In this document: in pieces, positions 42,289 to 53,713 of the stretch | Layout: each line of letters starts with the position of its first letter | How positions within the stretch are numbered: position 1 is the first letter of the stretch | IMG/VR virus record: IMGVR_UViG_3300043466_000797 | Span: 1 to 58,213 of that record | From: a virus | Reading direction: 5' to 3' (one strand) | DNA length: 58,213 bases | Translations under genes and position numbers: made by a program | The notes under the pieces: model-generated | Database searches by the model: none | Told to the model about the DNA's origin: nothing | The model's input: the letters and a program-made list of their open reading frames with translations, nothing else

Positions 42289-42362
42289 GGGGCGGTGGCG
42301 CAGTCGGTGAGCGCAGTACTCTTATAAGGTAAAGGTCGTGGGTTCAAGTCCCACCCGCCCTA
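42289..42362 (+). tRNA. tRNA-Ile (anticodon UAU)
   Basis: The acceptor stem pairs GGGGCGG (42289-42295) with CCGCCCT (42355-42361; one G-U). The D stem is GCGC/GCGC, the T arm is GTGGG-TTCAAGT-CCCAC, and the 7-base anticodon loop CTTATAA puts UAU at positions 34-36, reading AUA. The anticodon stem has one mismatch at its outer end. Bacteria normally read AUA with a lysidine-modified CAU tRNA, so UAU is notable. Confidence 0.85.
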
Positions 42363-42364
42363 CG

Positions 42365-42498
42365 GTTGCAGATGGCAATATCTTAGGATGGTGTAGTTAC
42401 ATACAAATATCCCGTTAATGCGAGTCTGTGCGAGTTGAAAGCGTTGAATTCGTTTCTAGCGTCTTTCGTGCGTAAGAGGGTTCGTAGCCGTCTGCAAC
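42365..42498 (+). ncRNA. Candidate structured RNA between two tRNA genes
   Basis: GTTGCAGATGGC (42365-42376) pairs with GCCGTCTGCAAC (42487-42498): 12 base pairs with one G-U. Inside lies at least one further hairpin (GAAAGCGT 42437-42444 with GCG-T-CTTTC 42459-42467, one bulge). No protein-coding frame of note covers it. The 3' part (GGGTTCGTA...) is reminiscent of a T arm but does not form a proper one. It starts three bases after tRNA-Ile and ends four bases before tRNA-Pro, so it would be excised with them. Confidence 0.6.
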
Positions 42499-42501
42499 TT
42501 A

Positions 42502-42575
42502 CGGGATGTGGCGCAGTTTGGTAGCGCACCTGCTTTGGGAGCAGGGGGTCGGAGGTTCAAATCCTCTCATCCCGA
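42502..42575 (+). tRNA. tRNA-Pro (anticodon UGG)
   Basis: Acceptor CGGGATG pairs with CATCCCG, D stem GCGC/GCGC, anticodon stem CCTGC/GCAGG with loop TTTGGGA giving UGG, and T arm GGAGG-TTCAAAT-CCTCT. CCA is not encoded. The ATG of the next gene begins one base after the discriminator A. Confidence 0.93.
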
Positions 42576-42576
42576 C

Positions 42577-42864
42577 ATGGAAATATTATTTGGTTTAACT
42601 ATAGTTATGGTAGCAATAGAGGCTATATCGGTCTATTACATTATTAGGCATGTTAAACAAATAAGTTCTGGGTTTAATAAATATGTGTCAAACATTAATG
42701 ACAGTAGTGAAATTAATGAAACAATAAATATATACCAAGAAAAGATTTTAGAATTAGAAGAAAAGAATAAAAAACTTAGTTTAGAGAATAAACTGCTTCA
42801 GGAAAAAATAAGCAAGATAAGCAAGCAAATGAAACAAATTAGTGATCATTTTAAACCAAACTGA
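42577..42864 (+). CDS. Small membrane protein with coiled coil
   Basis: 95 residues from ATG 42577, one base after tRNA-Pro. An N-terminal membrane segment (residues 4-24, FGLTIVMVAIEAISVYYIIR) is followed by a linker and a long Lys/Glu/Leu coiled coil. A frame open upstream to 42508 would lie inside the tRNA, so the tRNA-abutting ATG is the only sensible start. There is no ribosome site. It may be a holin-like or envelope protein. Confidence 0.7.
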   Translation: MEILFGLTIVMVAIEAISVYYIIRHVKQISSGFNKYVSNINDSSEINETINIYQEKILELEEKNKKLSLENKLLQEKISKISKQMKQISDHFKPN

Positions 42865-42870
42865 TATAAT
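42862..42870 (+). promoter_or_regulatory. Extended -10 promoter for a leaderless gene
   Basis: TGATATAAT overlaps the previous TGA stop. The ATG at 42877 lies exactly 6 bases after the -10 box, where transcription would begin, so the message would start at its own start codon. Confidence 0.6.
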
Positions 42871-42876
42871 TAATGT

Positions 42877-43113
42877 ATGGGAGACTCAATGGAAACTGAA
42901 GTTCAGGAAGAAGTAAGAGTTCTTACCAGAAGCGATAGGTGTGATGCTCCAAAGTGTCCTGCCCAGGCATGGGTTATCGCTAAGTTTGTAACAGGCGAGT
43001 TGTATTTTTGTGGTCACCACTTTGATAAGTATGAAGTTAGCATTATTCGTGATGCTTATGATATTGTAGATGAAAGAGAATTTATCAATGCTAAATCAGA
43101 ATCTTCTGCTTAG
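42877..43113 (+). CDS. DUF7455-like small zinc protein
   Basis: 78 residues. The pattern RCDAPKCPAQAWVIAKF, then LYFCGHHFDKYE (near 21-55) is that of the DUF7455 family, common in actinobacteria and their phages, with three Cys and two His likely binding zinc. ATG 42877 fits a leaderless start; ATG 42889 after GGGAG is an alternative. The end overlaps the next gene by 26 bases. Biochemical role unknown. Confidence 0.75.
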   Translation: MGDSMETEVQEEVRVLTRSDRCDAPKCPAQAWVIAKFVTGELYFCGHHFDKYEVSIIRDAYDIVDEREFINAKSESSA

Positions 43114-43597
43114 TAAAAAAGATAAAATAAAACTTGTCAGAGAACGTGATGGATTTACATGTGCTATATGCTCAAAGGATTTTAAGGCAAACTCTGATGT
43201 AACATTAGATCATTGGATTCCCCGATCAGCGGGAGGGTCAGAAGATGTATCTAATTTAAGACTTGCTCATAAAAAATGTAACGCATGGAAAAGTGATAGG
43301 ATTCCAAATGAAGATGGAACAATTCCTCCGCGCCCTCCAAGGGCTAATTATCAGGATAGAAAGCGGAGAAAGCAGGAAATACTAGAGGCTTTATGTACTG
43401 ATTGTTATGACGGCAGACTACTTCTTGAAGGAGAAAACTGTCCGATATGCGGAATTCCTGCTGGTCCACACGACTGGCCCCATTGGGCAAAGCGTCCAGC
43501 AAATAAATGTGATCATACACCGCCAGAATGGTGCTGGGCATGTTCTATTGGCATAGTTGACAGGAAGCCAGTATTTTTGGTACTCTTAGAGGGATAG
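43088..43597 (+). CDS. HNH endonuclease with extra zinc motifs
   Basis: 169 residues from ATG 43088. The HNH core is FTCAICSKDF, LDHWIPRSAGGSEDVSNLRL and HKKCNAWKS (near 22-70), with catalytic DH and the two Cys pairs that hold zinc. The C-terminal part has further CTDC, CPIC and CWAC pairs (near 105-155), an added zinc-rich extension. It may be a homing nuclease or a packaging-associated HNH; the gene lies close to the terminase genes. Confidence 0.82.
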   Translation: MLNQNLLLSKKDKIKLVRERDGFTCAICSKDFKANSDVTLDHWIPRSAGGSEDVSNLRLAHKKCNAWKSDRIPNEDGTIPPRPPRANYQDRKRRKQEILEALCTDCYDGRLLLEGENCPICGIPAGPHDWPHWAKRPANKCDHTPPEWCWACSIGIVDRKPVFLVLLEG

Positions 43598-43601
43598 GTA
43601 A

Positions 43602-43672
43602 TCCCCGTTGGTGTAATGGCAGCACAAATGTCTTTGGAACATTTAGTCGAAGTTCGAATCTTTGACGGGGAG
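43602..43672 (+). tRNA. tRNA-Gln (anticodon UUG)
   Basis: Acceptor TCCCCGT pairs with ACGGGGA, anticodon stem AATGT/ACATT with loop CTTTGGA giving UUG (reads CAA), and T arm CGAAG-TTCGAAT-CTTTG. No encoded CCA. It lies in the 90-base gap between the HNH gene and the gene at 43687. Confidence 0.92.
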
Positions 43673-43686
43673 CGGGAGGAGATAAT

Positions 43687-44082
43687 ATGCCTTGGAAAAT
43701 AGTAAGAGACTTTGGTGACTGCAATGGATATGCAGTAGTCAAAGAAGGAACGAGTGAAATTGAAGGTTGTCATGCAACTCGCGCAGCAGCAGTTGCACAA
43801 CAACGTGCGCTATATGCTTCTGAGAACAAATCAATGCATAGTGATGAAGAAGACGAGCGCAGAGGAAAGCGTAAGAATGAACTACGCAAAAGGTCTGTAG
43901 TAGAAAATCATCCTAATTGTGACGGAGGATTTGGCGTAGTTTCTGACGATGACGGAGAATTAAAAGGATGCTATCCAACAAGAAGCGCCGCTGAAGAAGC
44001 CATTCGTCAGCACGATATGGAAGATGATGATGGTATTGATAATGTATGGAGCGGGGCGTTTAGTCCTAAAAAGAAGAAATAA
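43687..44082 (+). CDS. Two-repeat protein with WSGAF C-terminus
   Basis: 131 residues. Residues 10-42 and 77-110 are two copies of one domain: each has (N/D)C(N/D)G, a short strand, E(I/L)xGC, then xTRxAAxxxxR. A very charged linker joins them (residues 52-70). The C-terminus is NVWSGAFSPKKKK; the VWSGAF piece (120-125) recurs in two nearby proteins. An AGGAG site precedes the ATG. Probably structural or capsid-associated, by analogy of the motif, but unproven. Confidence 0.65.
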   Translation: MPWKIVRDFGDCNGYAVVKEGTSEIEGCHATRAAAVAQQRALYASENKSMHSDEEDERRGKRKNELRKRSVVENHPNCDGGFGVVSDDDGELKGCYPTRSAAEEAIRQHDMEDDDGIDNVWSGAFSPKKKK

Positions 44083-44501
44083 TGGCTATTATTATTTGTG
44101 ATATTGATGATACGCTATTAAGGAATGGAACCCAGCCAATTAGATCAACAATTGACTGGATTAATTCTCATCAATCATATACAATTGCATTAGTAACTGG
44201 GCGTCCAAGATCAACAAGGGCAAAAACTATAGCAGCATTACGAAGTGCTGGAATTAAATATAATAGTTTATATATGAATCCATATAGTACTCAAGATTCA
44301 GATAAGTGGAAGTATGAAAAAGCAGTATCATTAAATTCCCGTGGCAATGTAGTACTTGCAATTGAGAATGATGAATCTGCACGCGCAGCATATAGAAGAG
44401 CGGGTGTGCCAAAGGTGGTTTCTCCTGGCTCTTTGTCCGATAACACATTAGAAAAAGATATTTTTAAAGGTGCTTTTATAATAGAAAAGGGATACAATTG
44501 A
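44082..44501 (+). CDS. HAD-family phosphatase
   Basis: 139 residues. HAD motif I is DIDDTLL (7-13), motif II is ALVTGRPR (36-43) with the conserved Thr/Ser, and the ENDES segment near 95-99 fits motif IV. This resembles the 3'-phosphatase domain of polynucleotide kinases, which would mend tRNA or DNA ends. The kinase part is absent. The last residues (IFKGAF, 127-132) resemble the VWSGAF tag of the preceding gene. Confidence 0.75.
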   Translation: MAIIICDIDDTLLRNGTQPIRSTIDWINSHQSYTIALVTGRPRSTRAKTIAALRSAGIKYNSLYMNPYSTQDSDKWKYEKAVSLNSRGNVVLAIENDESARAAYRRAGVPKVVSPGSLSDNTLEKDIFKGAFIIEKGYN

Positions 44502-44635
44502 CACGCGATAAGGTAATTGAAAAACTTAAGGCAAAGAAGATGAAAAACTCAGCGTCTTCTACTGAGATTAGTTCTTTTATTGCAGGATGGAACCAGGCAA
44601 TCAAAGAGGCGATTGATCTTTTAGAAAAAGATTAA
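44498..44635 (+). CDS. Small helical protein
   Basis: 45 residues from TTG 44498, overlapping the HAD stop by 4 bases and ending just before tRNA-Gly. It is basic at the N-terminus (TRDKVIEKLKAKKMKN) and helical at the C-terminus (WNQAIKEAIDLLEKD). No family recognised. Confidence 0.5.
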   Translation: MTRDKVIEKLKAKKMKNSASSTEISSFIAGWNQAIKEAIDLLEKD

Positions 44636-44641
44636 TCTTCC

Positions 44642-44712
44642 GCGAGTGTGGTGTAGAGGTAACACATCTGCCTTCCAAGCAGTTATCGCCAGTTCGATTC
44701 TGGTCACTCGCT
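44642..44712 (+). tRNA. tRNA-Gly (anticodon UCC)
   Basis: Acceptor GCGAGTG pairs with CACTCGC, anticodon loop CTTCCAA gives UCC (reads GGA), and the T arm is GCCAG-TTCGATT-CTGGT. No encoded CCA; discriminator T. Confidence 0.93.
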
Positions 44713-44716
44713 CTAG

Positions 44717-44789
44717 GTGCCTGTGGCGCAACGGAGAGCGCAAATGGTTTCTACCCATTAGGTTGGGGGTTCGAATCCCTCCAGGCACA
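44717..44789 (+). tRNA. tRNA-Arg (anticodon UCU)
   Basis: Acceptor GTGCCTG pairs with CAGGCAC, anticodon stem AATGG/CCATT with loop TTTCTAC giving UCU (reads AGA, the dominant Arg codon of these genes), and T arm GGGGG-TTCGAAT-CCCTC. The next gene's ATG starts one base after the discriminator. Confidence 0.93.
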
Positions 44790-44790
44790 C

Positions 44791-44907
44791 ATGAAAAAGA
44801 TATGTCACAATTGTAAAGTTGAAAAAGATCTAGAGCAATTTTTATTAGTGCCAGGACAAAGAGTTGGTGTCAGAGGAGTTTGCTCAGACTGTCTTAGGGC
44901 CAGATAG
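44791..44907 (+). CDS. Tiny zinc-ribbon protein between tRNAs
   Basis: 38 residues from ATG 44791, one base after tRNA-Arg. CHNC (residues 5-8) and CSDC (31-34) pairs would hold a zinc ion. The last 9 bases, including the stop codon, are also the 5' end of tRNA-Tyr. There is no ribosome site, so translation would rely on a processed or leaderless message. Confidence 0.6.
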   Translation: MKKICHNCKVEKDLEQFLLVPGQRVGVRGVCSDCLRAR

Positions 44908-44980
44908 TCCCCAAGGTGGGGAAGGTGACTGTAAATCACCCGCGAAAGCATGGGGAGTTCGATTCTCTCATCTGGCACCA
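44899..44980 (+). tRNA. tRNA-Tyr (anticodon GUA) with encoded CCA
   Basis: Acceptor GCCAGAT pairs with ATCTGGC, anticodon stem GGTGA/TCACC with loop CTGTAAA giving GUA, a long variable arm (class II), T arm GGGAG-TTCGATT-CTCTC, then ACCA at 44977-44980. Its first 9 bases overlap the end of the tiny zinc-ribbon gene. Confidence 0.92.
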
Positions 44981-44981
44981 T

Positions 44982-45068
44982 GGAAGTATGGCAGAGTGGT
45001 TATTGCAACGGTTTGCTAAACCGTGATCGGGTAATACTGATCCATAGGTTCGAATCCTATTACTTCCG
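44982..45068 (+). tRNA. tRNA-Ser (anticodon GCU)
   Basis: Acceptor GGAAGTA pairs with TACTTCC, anticodon stem ACGGT/ACCGT with loop TTGCTAA giving GCU (reads AGC/AGU), a long variable arm, and T arm ATAGG-TTCGAAT-CCTAT. It starts two bases after the tRNA-Tyr CCA. Confidence 0.92.
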
Positions 45069-45077
45069 CTCTGCTTA

Positions 45078-45154
45078 TGGCGTGTAGCACAATTGGCAGT
45101 TGCAGTCGGCTGTTAACCGACAGGTTGTAGGTTCGAATCCTACCACGCCAGCCA
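45078..45154 (+). tRNA. tRNA-Asn (anticodon GUU) with encoded CCA
   Basis: Acceptor TGGCGTG pairs with CACGCCA, anticodon stem GTCGG/CCGAC with loop CTGTTAA giving GUU, T arm GTAGG-TTCGAAT-CCTAC, then GCCA. A TGATATAAT promoter starts at the very next base. Confidence 0.93.
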
Positions 45155-45163
45155 TGATATAAT
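45155..45163 (+). promoter_or_regulatory. Extended -10 promoter TGATATAAT after tRNA-Asn
   Basis: The 9-mer abuts the encoded CCA of tRNA-Asn and should drive the exported-protein gene at 45234, with a leader of about 65 bases and a TAGGAG ribosome site. Confidence 0.6.
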
Positions 45164-45233
45164 CGTACTGTAAGAATTCCCATTTTCTTATGATGGTAAC
45201 AACTTTCATTAAAAAAATAGGAGAATTTGAAAC

Positions 45234-45623
45234 ATGAAGAAAAATAAAAAAATTATTTTAATAGCAGGAGCCTTCCTCTCTGCCATGGCCTTATCAAGTG
45301 TCGGGACAGCATATGCTATAGAAATGATTAACGTTACAATACCCGTATTCCCTGCTCTTGGAGAGGCAACAGCAGTAGGCTGTGATACTAATGGAGTAGG
45401 AACAACATATACATACGGTAATAGCAGTTCTAATGGAGTTAAGGTTACTGGAATAACTGTTTCTGGAATAGATGCACAATGTAAAAACACTATGGTAGAG
45501 TTTCTTCAATCTGGTGTTGTTGTAGCAACCTATAATTCAGCAGTAACAAATAATGCATCAACAATGACCACAAATATTTTTACTGGTCAGTTTAATGATG
45601 TTCGTGTAACTCTTACACCATAA
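45234..45623 (+). CDS. Small exported protein with signal peptide
   Basis: 129 residues. A basic start (MKKNKK) and hydrophobic core (IILIAGAFLSAMALSSVG) end in TAYA|IE, a likely signal-peptidase site after residue 28. The mature part (about 100 residues) is beta-rich, Thr/Val/Ser-rich, with two Cys that could form a disulphide. It resembles no family I can name and may be a surface or virion-decorating protein, or a superinfection factor. It has its own promoter and a terminator-like palindrome downstream. Confidence 0.75.
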   Translation: MKKNKKIILIAGAFLSAMALSSVGTAYAIEMINVTIPVFPALGEATAVGCDTNGVGTTYTYGNSSSNGVKVTGITVSGIDAQCKNTMVEFLQSGVVVATYNSAVTNNASTMTTNIFTGQFNDVRVTLTP

Positions 45624-45633
45624 ATTATTGTGT

Positions 45634-45661
45634 CCCATGCCCTGAATATTCAGGGTATGGG
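45634..45661 (+). terminator. 28-base palindrome after exported-protein gene
   Basis: CCCATGCCCTGAAT (45634-45647) is followed directly by its complement (45648-45661), with one G-U at 45639/45656. It is not followed by a T run. It lies 10 bases after the stop of the exported protein and directly before the -10 box at 45663, so it may serve as a terminator, an operator, or both. Confidence 0.6.
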
Positions 45662-45662
45662 A

Positions 45663-45668
45663 TATAAT
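45663..45668 (+). promoter_or_regulatory. -10 box for a leaderless mini-gene
   Basis: TATAAT ends six bases before ATG 45675, so the first transcribed base should be the A of the start codon. No ribosome site exists upstream of this ATG. Confidence 0.5.
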
Positions 45669-45674
45669 AAAGTT

Positions 45675-45800
45675 ATGAATAATGTTATCACTACCGAAAC
45701 AATAAGACAGGGCGGTGGAGGAATAACAAATCCAGAACATAAAGATGGAAAAATAAAAATAGGAAAATCTCCATTAAAAGTAAGGCGTGGTAAGAAGTAA
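45675..45800 (+). CDS. 41-residue glycine- and lysine-rich mini-protein
   Basis: It encodes MNNVITTETIRQGGGG and continues to a basic end (KIKIGKSPLKVRRGKK). The placement is precise: a -10 box six bases before ATG, and the TAA stop shares its last base with the next ATG at 45800. The basic tail suggests nucleic-acid or membrane binding. No family recognised. Confidence 0.45.
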   Translation: MNNVITTETIRQGGGGITNPEHKDGKIKIGKSPLKVRRGKK

Positions 45801-45919
45801 TGTTTACATTTTATTGCCTCGTTAAACACAATGGTAACTACTACCTCAAGCCTTACATTACTATTTATAATAATATGATTGAAATAGTAAATTATCCAAA
45901 ATCGTTGACCATATCGTAA
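45800..45919 (+). CDS. 39-residue mini-protein
   Basis: It begins at ATG 45800, sharing one base with the previous stop. The protein is Tyr/Asn/Ile-rich (MFTFYCLVKHNGNYYLKPYI). Its 3' end contains the -35 box of the next promoter. It could be a real tiny protein or a chance frame; the coupled start is the only support. Confidence 0.35.
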   Translation: MFTFYCLVKHNGNYYLKPYITIYNNMIEIVNYPKSLTIS

Positions 45920-45933
45920 TATTCCCGTATAAT
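45905..45933 (+). promoter_or_regulatory. Consensus sigma70-type promoter for the lysis gene
   Basis: TTGACC (45905-45910), a 17-base spacer and TATAAT (45928-45933) make the best two-box promoter in the rightward genes. It lies 32 bases before the endolysin ATG, with an AAGGAGG ribosome site at 45954-45960. Confidence 0.75.
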
Positions 45934-45965
45934 AGAATTCATGTTGCCGCCACAAGGAGGTCAAT

Positions 45966-46580
45966 ATGACGACAATAAACCGATTTGGTGCTGCATTAGT
46001 ATCAACAATAACAGTATTATCAATGATACTAATCTCTCCAAACCTGGCGTATGCTAAGTCTACGCCTTTGGCGGAAGGTACAGGAAACCTTGCCACCGCT
46101 GATACATTAGAAAGAAGGGCAATAACAGATAGAAACTGGACATTGCCATCTAATTGTAATGATAAGCAAGCAAAGATATTGTTTAAGGCGGGTTTTAATA
46201 GACCTGGGATGCTTAGAGGAGCCTGGGCAATTACCTGGCGTGAATCAAAGCACCAGTCACTTGATGAATCTAGCAGATATTTTACAGGTGCCCTAGGAAC
46301 TTGGCAAATCCAGACAAGTGCATGGTCTGGTAGATCCTGGTGGTCTAGAGATAATATGTTAGACAAGGAAAAGCAATCAGAAATTGTAAGGAAGCATTTC
46401 CTTAATGATGGAATGCATAATTGGGGCTATGGATATTCATTTAAGAATGATTCATGGTACGAGAATGCAGGAATGTATTATTCCCTCTGGGGATCTGGAT
46501 TAACTTATTCATGGGTTATTGCACCATTCAATACTGGATGGTCTTTATTCCCAAAGAAATGTACCCCAGAAAAGATTTAA
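45966..46580 (+). CDS. Exported lysozyme/transglycosylase-like endolysin
   Basis: 204 residues. A signal peptide spans residues 1-30 (hydrophobic ALVSTITVLSMILISPNLAYA split at the end; cut after AYA). The mature part has AWAITWRESKH with the likely catalytic Glu93, then TGALGTWQIQTSAWSG, the pattern of SLT/lysozyme-like folds in actinobacterial Rpf and transglycosylase proteins. It should cut glycan strands after Sec export, so lysis may not need a holin for release. Strong promoter and ribosome site fit timed late expression. Confidence 0.78.
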   Translation: MTTINRFGAALVSTITVLSMILISPNLAYAKSTPLAEGTGNLATADTLERRAITDRNWTLPSNCNDKQAKILFKAGFNRPGMLRGAWAITWRESKHQSLDESSRYFTGALGTWQIQTSAWSGRSWWSRDNMLDKEKQSEIVRKHFLNDGMHNWGYGYSFKNDSWYENAGMYYSLWGSGLTYSWVIAPFNTGWSLFPKKCTPEKI

Positions 46581-46594
46581 ATGATAGAATTGTA

Positions 46595-46631
46595 TTCTAG
46601 GCGCAAATAAAATTGCGGCAACAGCCTAGGA
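46595..46631 (+). terminator. Nested hairpin after the endolysin gene
   Basis: TTCTAGGC (46595-46602) pairs with GCCTAGGA (46624-46631; one G-U), enclosing a smaller GCAA/TTGC stem. It lies between the endolysin stop and tRNA-Thr. It may end the lysis message or guide processing of the tRNA 5' end two bases later. Confidence 0.5.
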
Positions 46632-46633
46632 TC

Positions 46634-46707
46634 GCCTCAGTAACTCAGTTGGCTAGAGTATCCGCCTTGTAAGCGGAAAGTCATCGGTTCGAATCCGATC
46701 TGAGGCT
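46634..46707 (+). tRNA. tRNA-Thr (anticodon UGU)
   Basis: Acceptor GCCTCAG pairs with CTGAGGC, anticodon stem TCCGC/GCGGA with loop CTTGTAA giving UGU (reads ACA), and T arm ATCGG-TTCGAAT-CCGAT. The next gene's ATG starts one base after the discriminator T. Confidence 0.93.
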
Positions 46708-46708
46708 C

Positions 46709-50942: not shown

Positions 50943-51476
50943 ATGACTTGTATAGTAGGAATAGCCGATGGTAAAAAAGTCTATATGGGTGGAGATTCTG
51001 CTTCTGTAGATGAAGACAATTCTCTAGTATCTTCTAGGAAAGAACCTAAAATTTTTATAAATGGTGGATATTTAATAGGATACGCTGGAAGTTTTAGATT
51101 TGGTAAAATTCTTCAGCACTCCTTTATTCCTCCAAAAATATCTAGCGACAACATAGATAAATTTTTAAATACTACATTTGTGAATGCTCTTAGAGAATGT
51201 TGTGAATTAAATAAGGTAGATCCTGGGTCGGAAGAAGATTCTTCAGAAATGCTTATAGGAGTTTCGGGCAGAGTATTTGAATTCTGTAACGATTGGCACT
51301 TTGGCGAAGATATTAATAATTTTAATTCCATAGGATCGGGAACAAAGTTCGCTCTAGGATCTTTGTATTCTACTAGACGATTAAAGTCTCCAAATGCTAG
51401 AATACAACTAGCACTTGAATCAGCGGAGAAATTCTCTACATCTGTAAGAGGACCATTTACTATATTGGAGTTGTAA
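50943..51476 (+). CDS. HslV/proteasome-like Ntn hydrolase
   Basis: 177 residues. After removal of Met the chain begins with Thr (TCIVGIADGKKVYMGGDSAS), aligning with the catalytic Thr1 and Asp17 of HslV and proteasome beta subunits. A Lys near position 33 (SRKEPKI), the GSGTKFALGSLYSTR segment and the ending FTILEL also match HslV. No HslU-type ATPase is seen in the window. It may digest host or phage proteins, form an inactive decoy, or process itself. The upstream TATAAT (50903-50908) offers a promoter. Confidence 0.7.
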   Translation: MTCIVGIADGKKVYMGGDSASVDEDNSLVSSRKEPKIFINGGYLIGYAGSFRFGKILQHSFIPPKISSDNIDKFLNTTFVNALRECCELNKVDPGSEEDSSEMLIGVSGRVFEFCNDWHFGEDINNFNSIGSGTKFALGSLYSTRRLKSPNARIQLALESAEKFSTSVRGPFTILEL

Positions 51477-52217: not shown

Positions 52218-52577
52218 ATGACTAAAAATAATAGAGCAATGATGTTTGATTATATAAACATTAGATTATCAGATATGATATTGGCAATAAATAACAGATT
52301 TGAGCAAAATGAAAAACAGGTAGAAAGAGCAGAAAGAACACTAAATGAAAGATTGGCTTCTGTTAATGAATTTAGATTAGTTCTTACTGATCAGCAAAAA
52401 CTATTAGTAAATAGAACTGAATACCAGAATCTATCTGATCGTGTGGATAGAATAGAATCTAGGCTAAGTCTACTAGAAGGTAGAGGAAAAGGTCTTAGTG
52501 CTGGCTGGGGGTATCTAGTCGGGGCAATTGGTCTGATTGTAGGATTTATAACAATATTAAGTATAGATTTAATATGA
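52218..52577 (+). CDS. Coiled-coil membrane protein, holin-like (DUF7201 type)
   Basis: 119 residues. Residues 1-85 are helical coiled coil with LNERLASVNEFRLVLTDQQK and RTEYQNLSDRVDRIESRLS, a pattern widespread in phages (DUF7201-like). Residues 93-116 form one membrane helix (GWGYLVGAIGLIVGFITILS). C-terminal anchoring with an N-terminal cytoplasmic coil fits a holin or lysis-control protein. It is separated from the endolysin by about 6 kb. Confidence 0.65.
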   Translation: MTKNNRAMMFDYINIRLSDMILAINNRFEQNEKQVERAERTLNERLASVNEFRLVLTDQQKLLVNRTEYQNLSDRVDRIESRLSLLEGRGKGLSAGWGYLVGAIGLIVGFITILSIDLI

Positions 52578-52691: not shown

Positions 52692-53252
52692 GTGCAAGAT
52701 AAGACAAGTAATTTAATTATATGGCTAGTAATTGGAGCGATATTCATCGTTACAGTTGGCGCTCTAATTTTTATGTTTAGTTCTTCCGCAAATGCTGGTG
52801 GAGATAAAGTAAGAATATGTCACGCCACCGCATCACAATCTAACCCATATGTAAACATAGAAATTGATTCTTCAAGTATTGAGAATCCTAATGATAAGAA
52901 GTATTTAAACGGACATGGAGATCATGAAAAGGATATCATTCCTCCATTTTCGTTTAATGAATCATCTTTCCCTGGCATGAATTGGGACGATACTGGTCAA
53001 GTGATCTGGAATAATGACTGTAAAGTAGTCACTCCAACACCTACACCAACGCCCACTCCAACGGAGCCAACTCCAACCCCAACACCAACGGAGCCAACTC
53101 CAACACCAACGCCGACAGAGCCAACTCCAGAACCAACGGAGCCAACTCCTACGCCAGAACCAACGGAGACAAATCCAACACCAATCCCAATCCCAACAGA
53201 CATACCCGCTGGTGGGGGAGGCATGGCTGTGGAAGTCCCCGTTTTAAAATAA
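52692..53252 (+). CDS. Membrane-anchored or secreted PT-rich surface protein (short form)
   Basis: 186 residues from GTG 52692. Residues 8-36 are a signal peptide or membrane anchor (IIWLVIGAIFIVTVGALIFM, ending SSANA). Residues 38-115 contain KVRICHATASQSNPYVNIEI and NGHGDHEKDIIPPFSF, a domain known from actinobacterial surface proteins. Residues 117-170 are Pro/Thr/Glu repeats spanning the wall. The zero-frame ends at TAA 53250, directly after an in-phase slippery heptamer that would extend it into a sortase domain. Confidence 0.75.
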   Translation: MQDKTSNLIIWLVIGAIFIVTVGALIFMFSSSANAGGDKVRICHATASQSNPYVNIEIDSSSIENPNDKKYLNGHGDHEKDIIPPFSFNESSFPGMNWDDTGQVIWNNDCKVVTPTPTPTPTPTEPTPTPTPTEPTPTPTPTEPTPEPTEPTPTPEPTETNPTPIPIPTDIPAGGGGMAVEVPVLK

Positions 53253-53713
53253 ATGCTGAAATAGTTCCTGTTGGAATAACTTCTAATAACTCAATAGAAA
53301 TACCTGATGATATCTCAAAGGTAGGCATTTATAAATATGGAGCCGCCCCTGGGTCTAATGGGGGATCTACAATTCTCGTGAGTCACCGCGATGGAGTAGG
53401 TTCAGACCCAGGGGCTTTCTATAATCTGGAAACACTCGCTATGGGGGATAAGGTCGATATTTCCTATATCAATTATACCTCACATTATATAATTATTGAC
53501 CGATTTATGACCAAAAAAGATTCTTTTTATAAGAAAGCACCGAAACTTTTCAGGTATAAGGGTCCTCCACAATTAGTTATGATTACCTGTGGCGGCGGGT
53601 TCGATTTTGAAGCGGGATCATACAAGAAAAATGTAATAGTCATAGCAATCCCATTGACTTATTCACATACAAATATATATAATGGTAAACATACAACATT
53701 AATATTTAACTGA
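52692..53713 (+). CDS. Predicted frameshift fusion: surface anchor + PT linker + class F-like sortase
   Basis: Reading 52692-53249 then 53249-53713 gives 340 residues. The -1 frame has no start codon before GTG 53378, which would delete the first third of the sortase. Across the junction the sequence reads VEVPVLK then INAEIVPVG, a smooth match to the first strands of class F sortases. The domain then has KVGIYKYGAAPGSNGG, catalytic His in ILVSHRDG, LAMGDKV and catalytic Cys in VMITCGGGFD. No Arg follows the Cys; Lys (SYKKN) takes its usual place, so activity is uncertain. It would be a wall-spanning transpeptidase. A simple indel is the main alternative. Confidence 0.65.
53034..53200 (+). 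repeat. Proline/threonine/glutamate repeat region
   Basis: CCAACTCCAACACCAACG-type units repeat through this stretch, encoding PTPTPTE and related units. They form an extended stalk between the anchor and the sortase domain. Such repeats can change length by recombination or polymerase slippage. Confidence 0.8.
53243..53249 (+). promoter_or_regulatory. Candidate -1 frameshift heptamer TTTAAAA
   Basis: The zero frame reads GTT TTA AAA TAA, so T TTA AAA is in the exact X XXY YYZ phase and a stop follows at once. A weak bulged hairpin (AGTTCC 53263-53268 with GGAATAACT 53273-53281) lies 13 bases downstream, further than usual. A GGGGGAGG tract (53214-53221 region) lies about 21 bases upstream, also further than the best-known stimulators. 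Confidence 0.55.

Follow-up and report, generated by a model that had tools for sequence, protein, structure and literature searches.

Most of what is known about ribosomal frameshifting in tailed phages concerns virion and tail-assembly proteins. Described cases include phage structural proteins extended by frameshifting, among them coat and tail proteins with Ig-like domains and lambda G-GT (PMC5009743). The gene analyzed here lies in a 58-kb virus record of 38% GC, and by "the window" we mean this whole stretch of DNA. It would resemble the structural genes in that -1 slippage yields a short and a C-terminally extended protein from one gene. Relatives of the extended structural proteins may use another shift or an in-frame extension, which invites comparison with the relative of our gene on viral contig L095. 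The difference lies in what is added: the known extensions are structural domains of virion or assembly proteins, whereas that in the window would be a wall enzyme attached to a surface protein directed to the membrane.

The enzyme most resembles the class F sortases (NF033748), which include that of P. acnes/C. acnes (cited in PMC13257024). Like these, the predicted fusion protein has an N-terminal membrane segment, a Pro-rich linker and the ITCGG and SHRD/GHVD motifs. It differs from them in being encoded by a phage, in carrying an extra surface domain before the linker and in its expression across a frame break, and further in having Lys for the Arg near YxxN and a score under the curated cut-off. 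A third precedent is provided by IS3411 and other IS elements, in which stem-loops located 44-104 nt after the shift site act as distal stimulators (PMC5009743). In the paper library searched we found no phage sortase, in agreement with the original prediction made from this DNA, which knew of no described phage sortase expressed by frameshifting.

We propose, with a probability of about 0.85, that programmed -1 ribosomal frameshifting allows one gene to specify both a surface protein of 186 aa and a membrane-tethered sortase of 340 aa. This reading is drawn from sequence comparison, namely a conserved break, slippery sites, a switch of the selected frame, and a homologue that has its domains in the same order within one frame. 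Most ribosomes would be expected to end at TAA 53250 and release the 186-aa protein. Some would back up by one base on T TTA AAA, or alternatively slip with the Lys-tRNA alone on A AAA, and read on in the -1 frame to give the 340-aa product with its C-terminal class F-like sortase domain. Judging from typical efficiencies, the short protein would be the major and the tethered sortase the minor product. We infer that slippage would occur at a useful rate and that the fusion would be exported, placing the sortase outside the membrane, and that the enzyme may link or process a host or phage surface polypeptide during infection. The idea of the original prediction that it could rebuild the host surface, for instance to block superinfection, is speculative.

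Layout of the gene and its sortase domain

The zero-frame product begins with a hydrophobic helix or signal that ends in ANA, continues with a surface domain of the pattern CHAT...GHxxHxxDIIPPF and a Pro/Thr linker, and closes after a GGGG hinge with ...GGGGMAVEVPVLK* (Table 1). The -1 frame reads INAEIVPVGITSNNSIEIPDD...HRDG...ITCGGGFDF... up to TGA 53713. Upstream, it is open as far as 53024, so that the two frames overlap by 226 nt, and ATG, GTG and TTG are absent from it between 53024 and GTG 53378.

Table 1. Features of the surface protein-sortase gene, numbered by position in the window
Feature	Position	Strand	Remarks
Zero-frame ORF, 186 aa	52692-53252	+	GTG start, TAA stop
Hydrophobic membrane/signal segment LIIWLVIGAIFIVTVGALIFMFSSSANA	52713-52796	+	Hydropathy maximum 2.89
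Surface domain KVRICHATAS...NGHGDHEKDIIPPF...IWNNDCK	52800-53027	+	Common to actinobacterial and Patescibacteria surface proteins
Pro/Thr/Glu-rich linker	53028-53202	+	Sequence
Slippery heptamer T TTA AAA (zero-frame phase)	53243-53249	+	
Zero-frame stop TAA, immediately 3' of the heptamer	53250-53252	+	
Class F-like sortase domain, -1 frame	53249-53713	+	First codon ATA, stop TGA
Sortase catalytic-type residues	His codon 53384-53386, Cys codon 53588-53590	+	
RNA hairpin inside the sortase coding sequence	53336-53423	+	35 pairs, -44.8 kcal/mol

This layout confirmed two points of the original prediction: an in-phase T TTA AAA directly precedes the zero-frame stop, and the sortase frame has no usable start, its first ATG, GTG or TTG being GTG 53378 within the conserved core. 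Internal initiation or termination-reinitiation could in principle produce a separate sortase, as seven actinophage contigs (L087-L093; see below) do have separate, mostly overlapping genes for a secreted protein and a sortase, with their own starts. For our gene we regard this as highly improbable. The window and its relatives L002 and L097 have no ATG, GTG or TTG ahead of the conserved core residues, a start at GTG 53378 would remove approximately the first third of the domain, and the separate enzyme would be without a membrane or export signal. Moreover, the first strand of the domain, VPVLKINAEIVPVG, is built from both frames, and the zero-frame residues that complete it are conserved.

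Alone, the -1 frame matches the Pfam family Sortase (PF04203, E=1.9e-13) and the NCBIfam class F model NF033748 (81.5 bits, profile positions 21-152). With the zero-frame residues added, the class F match extends without a gap to profile positions 13-152 of 155 and rises to 89.6 bits (E=1.6e-25), and in the related contig L004 it increases likewise from 90.7 to 98.9 bits. The claim that class F homology runs seamlessly across the junction is thus confirmed in both phages. Class F is the best sortase class, the next one reaching only E=8.9e-5. Because 89.6 bits does not reach the curated NF033748 cut-off of 166 bits, we name the domain class F-like; two cellular domain-only class F sequences also fall under this cut-off, with 136.8 and 122.6 bits.

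The cellular class F-like sequences used for comparison, 38 in number and taken from actinobacterial genomes, all have a His and a Cys (TC) aligned with those of the window (38/38). It had been cautioned that an Arg after the catalytic Cys is missing, and the window indeed has Lys at this position. However, its absence says little, as Arg occupies the column in only 7 of the 38 cellular sequences, among which there is no conserved Arg column after the Cys. AlphaFold2 gave no usable model from a three-sequence sortase alignment (pLDDT 37.6). For the single-frame protein of L095 (pLDDT 41.3), only the N-terminal helix was well modelled, which corresponds to the hydrophobic segment of the window. 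Scanning genome contigs with the sortase alignment returned no confirmed relative, and 50,697 isolate phages contained neither a relative of the window sortase nor, by two further queries, a class F sortase.

The frame break in related phages and selection on its two sides

T TTA AAA is the only in-phase heptamer of the type X XXY YYZ in the 226-nt overlap. Of the 97 + strand ORFs in the window that are 60 aa or longer, only the zero-frame ORF terminates in such a heptamer; the background rate is 86 in-phase heptamers per 18,830 codon positions. Y YYA AAR heptamers have been noted as shift-prone in E. coli (PMC4066793).

Alignment of homologues showed the frame break and the heptamer to be conserved. 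L002 (sortase 82% identical to that of the window over the part covered) and L004 (66% identical) have the same break and the same heptamer. Their junction reads GCT TTA AAA TAA, and hence their T run has three residues rather than four. In L097 the sortase also lies in the -1 frame, and the in-phase heptamer is T TTT TTA, one codon upstream of the window's heptamer position and separated from the stop by five sense codons. All four broken-frame phages (the window, L002, L004 and L097) have one canonical in-phase heptamer per overlap, and its position in the protein agrees within one codon. A stop codon in the A site may assist the slip, although the five intervening sense codons of L097 speak otherwise.

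L097 and L095 were recovered by searching viral contigs with the surface-domain pattern GHxxHxxDIIPPF; a search for single-frame relatives with the pattern VP[VA]LKI[NK]A gave four matches, all unrelated. L095 has the same domain order in one uninterrupted frame of 413 codons, and the fused translations of the window, L004 and L097 align with it across the junction without a gap there. The original prediction had held that a relative with a continuous frame would speak against it. L095 is such a relative, but it represents a separate lineage beside four distinct broken-frame phages and therefore shows the nature of the fused product rather than an error in the break. One might still suppose that the break is a sequencing or assembly indel in an L095-like single-frame gene, as short A/T runs are indel-prone. 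However, the identical one-base offset recurs in contigs of different metagenomes (IMG ids 3300017917, 3300032050 and 3300034107), where the local runs differ (T3A4, T6) and the heptamers are in phase. The earlier caution that the T4A4 run might hide an indel was not borne out either, because relatives with T3A4 keep the same break. By this comparison the break at 53243-53252 is not a sequencing indel, which we consider the least probable of all explanations.

Another explanation places the slip in transcription: RNA polymerase would slip on the T/A run, so that some mRNAs carry the sortase in frame. T4A4 at the window junction and T6 in L097 would suit this, but L002 and L004 have only T3A4 and yet keep the break and the exact phase of the heptamer. 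T3A4 is shorter than the runs on which polymerases usually slip, and we consider transcriptional slippage improbable.

Selection on the two frames was assessed mainly between the window and L004, a pair whose synonymous sites are nearly saturated (dS approximately 1.3 for the zero frame). The zero frame has a dN/dS of 0.11 for this pair; for the sortase frame of the window, the value is 0.30 against L004 and 0.38 against L002. Over the last 21 codons upstream of the heptamer, pN/pS between the window and L004 is low when read in the zero frame (0.09) and high in the -1 frame (1.97). Over the 28 codons that follow the heptamer, it is the -1 frame that has the low value (0.28) and the zero frame the high one (1.64). 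This reversal means that the selected frame changes at the heptamer, with purifying selection acting on each frame on its own side of the slip site.

The same data bear on the possibility that the gene is decayed, i.e., that a frameshift loss became fixed and left a sortase pseudogene in the broken-frame phages. L095 is intact in a single frame, and in one strain the fusion has been lost, which counts against frameshifting: L010, otherwise 99.98% identical to L011/L004, has lost the 77 nt immediately following AAAATA, a deletion that closes the -1 frame after a few codons and removes the -1 route to the sortase. A relative with the same break and a decayed sortase had been named as adverse to the original prediction; it was found this once, at the strain level, while the other broken members keep the sortase. 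The values of dN/dS in the sortase frame, the retention of His and Cys, the absence of stops over a long divergence, and the constant phase of the heptamer in all broken members make decay very improbable. Taken together, the break, the frame-wise selection and L095 support the predicted route, in which the sortase would be reached from the surface-protein frame via a -1 shift.

Local stimulators and an RNA hairpin in the sortase coding sequence

Frameshift stimulators are usual but not obligatory, and their usual spacing is 5-9 nt. No canonical stimulator was found 5-9 nt 3' of the heptamer, where the local structure is weak and not conserved: the first 60 nt after the heptamer form a weak fold in the window (-6.1 kcal/mol) and a different fold in L004. 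The G-rich SD-like stretch upstream of the heptamer is not retained as GGAGG in L004. The window and L002 share a stem that borders on the heptamer (AUAAAUGCU/GGCAUUUAU), but it was rejected, two of its pairs being broken in L004. The caution that the stimulators are weak was therefore justified, and the only strong hairpin is distal.

This hairpin, which the original prediction did not cover, starts 86 nt after the heptamer, has 12-bp arms (53345-53356 / 53404-53415) and is the most stable fold of 7,266 92-nt segments of the + strand. It is present in all five phages, L095 included. Synonymous recodings that follow phage codon usage were as stable in 0/1000 cases for the window, L004 and L097 and in 1/1000 cases for L002 and L095. 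Synonymous divergence between the window and L004 is 0.25 in the hairpin and 1.07 and 1.42 on its two sides. Comparison with the more distant L097 and L095 no longer shows this suppression, but the pairing is retained. In the five-phage alignment 91% of cells pair, and four pairs show both-sided changes (UA/AU twice, CG/GC and AU/UA; n=5 sequences). The covariation score is 0.237, as against 0.138 for shuffles (0/500) and a maximum of 0.074 after sliding. G-U pairs at columns 164-239 and 201-210 occur in 5/5 phages, which fits an RNA of the + strand. Recombination as the source of the low synonymous divergence is disfavored by the compensatory changes and the recoding test, which argue for selection on the RNA. 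The nucleotide identity of the region is by itself not unique (rank approximately 3 of 2,079 segments versus L011), and Rfam gave no match for the hairpin. Following the stem, the window has CUUUCUAU, whereas L095 and L097 both have CUUUUUA. The 77-nt deletion (approximately position 1073 in L010; L003:4555-4575) leaves the hairpin approximately 9 nt behind the heptamer.

The window resembles IS3411 in that a gene with a proposed bacterial-type -1 frameshift contains a strong stem-loop, interrupted by an internal loop, at some distance from the shift site (86 nt 3' of the heptamer in the window). Unlike IS3411, it lacks a conserved partner hairpin close to the heptamer, and IS3411-like pairing between the spacer and the hairpin's internal loop did not exceed that in dinucleotide shuffles. 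The distance of 86 nt and the presence of the hairpin in the unbroken L095 count against a function as shift stimulator. Given the unsupported spacer pairing and the hairpin in L095, we treat it simply as an RNA element of the gene. It could be a translation-coupled attenuator controlling distal transcription, or a ribosome-pacing element. One may speculate further, with low confidence, that actinophages have a dedicated module of surface protein and sortase for remodeling the host surface, which in this lineage is condensed into a single gene. The -1 shift would then determine how much surface protein is made relative to tethered enzyme, and the hairpin would couple this choice to the fate of the distal message, e.g., as an attenuator opened by shifted ribosomes only or as a distal pacing element.

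Other stable 92-nt folds occur on the + strand of the window at 45593 (-39.9 kcal/mol), 5937 (-39.6 kcal/mol) and 47761 (-37.2 kcal/mol), and in L097 at approximately 14032 (-44.5 kcal/mol); these might be further structured RNA elements.

Surface proteins, sorting signals and sortases in phages

The surface domain matches no Pfam or PHROG family. It occurs at 31 bacterial loci, mostly of Actinobacteria and Patescibacteria, in proteins that often have LPxTG-type C-termini (L022, L027, L029, L036 and L042); a sortase motif within 2.5 kb behind the surface-domain gene was found at 0 of the 31 loci. The zero-frame product of the window ends IPAGGGGMAVEVPVLK and has no LPxTG-type sorting signal (motif, hydrophobic stretch and basic tail), nor does any other + strand ORF within the 58-kb window, which is a fragment. 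The same surface domain is found on phage-encoded, host-surface-directed proteins, gp190 of Arthrobacter phage Racecar (L007:2887-3678) and the protein of L094 (L094:3526-3964), where it is followed by MPDTG or LPRTG, a hydrophobic stretch and a basic tail. These proteins are presumably anchored by host sortases. In contrast to them, the window protein has no C-terminal sorting signal and would bring its own sortase, the domain being joined to a sortase in place of the signal in the window lineage.

In L087-L093, a class F sortase gene comes immediately after the gene for a secreted protein whose C-terminus is PxGGVxTGGGPA or a variant close to it (e.g., L092:2279-3468 and L088:2117-3477), and in at least four of these contigs the stop and start codons overlap as GTGA or TTGA. 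These are possibly phage-encoded sortase-substrate pairs with a new sorting motif; the PxGGVxTG motif was not found adjoining cellular class F sortases. The combination of a secreted protein with a class F sortase is shared with the window, and PxGGVxTGGGPA loosely resembles the IPAGGGG hinge. Unlike in the window, the two are separate proteins, the sortase has its own start and lipobox or TM segment, and there is no frameshift. These pairs suggest that combining a surface protein with a sortase is a more general practice among phages; the window would be its one-gene version. An endolysin gene lies within approximately 1.5 kb in L087, L088 and L093, a tail-fibre gene lies beside the L092 module, and one of the secreted proteins has a weak Excalibur match.

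The window terminase is nearest to those of Streptomyces phages, e.g., Phredrick (60%), and the close relative L002 encodes a WhiB-like protein; the window phage is therefore most likely an actinophage. Directly upstream of the frameshift gene, at 52218-52577 and conserved there in L004, is an ORF for a small protein with a C-terminal membrane segment and a weak match to a phage 'hemolysin' (phrog_937). The region 50943-51476 encodes a proteasome-type peptidase of the HslV family (phrog_1040, E=1.2e-22), with a similar ORF in L002 (2514-3047). Nine tRNA genes lie at 42289-46708, including a tRNA-Ile with the anticodon TAT; the first post-slip codon is ATA.

In summary, frameshifting appears here to deliver a cell-wall transpeptidase. 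L095 provides a natural single-frame control for the purpose of the ribosomal switch, and the hairpin is a separate RNA element with compensatory changes across five phages. If the enzyme is active, the phage would edit the covalent surface of its host during infection.
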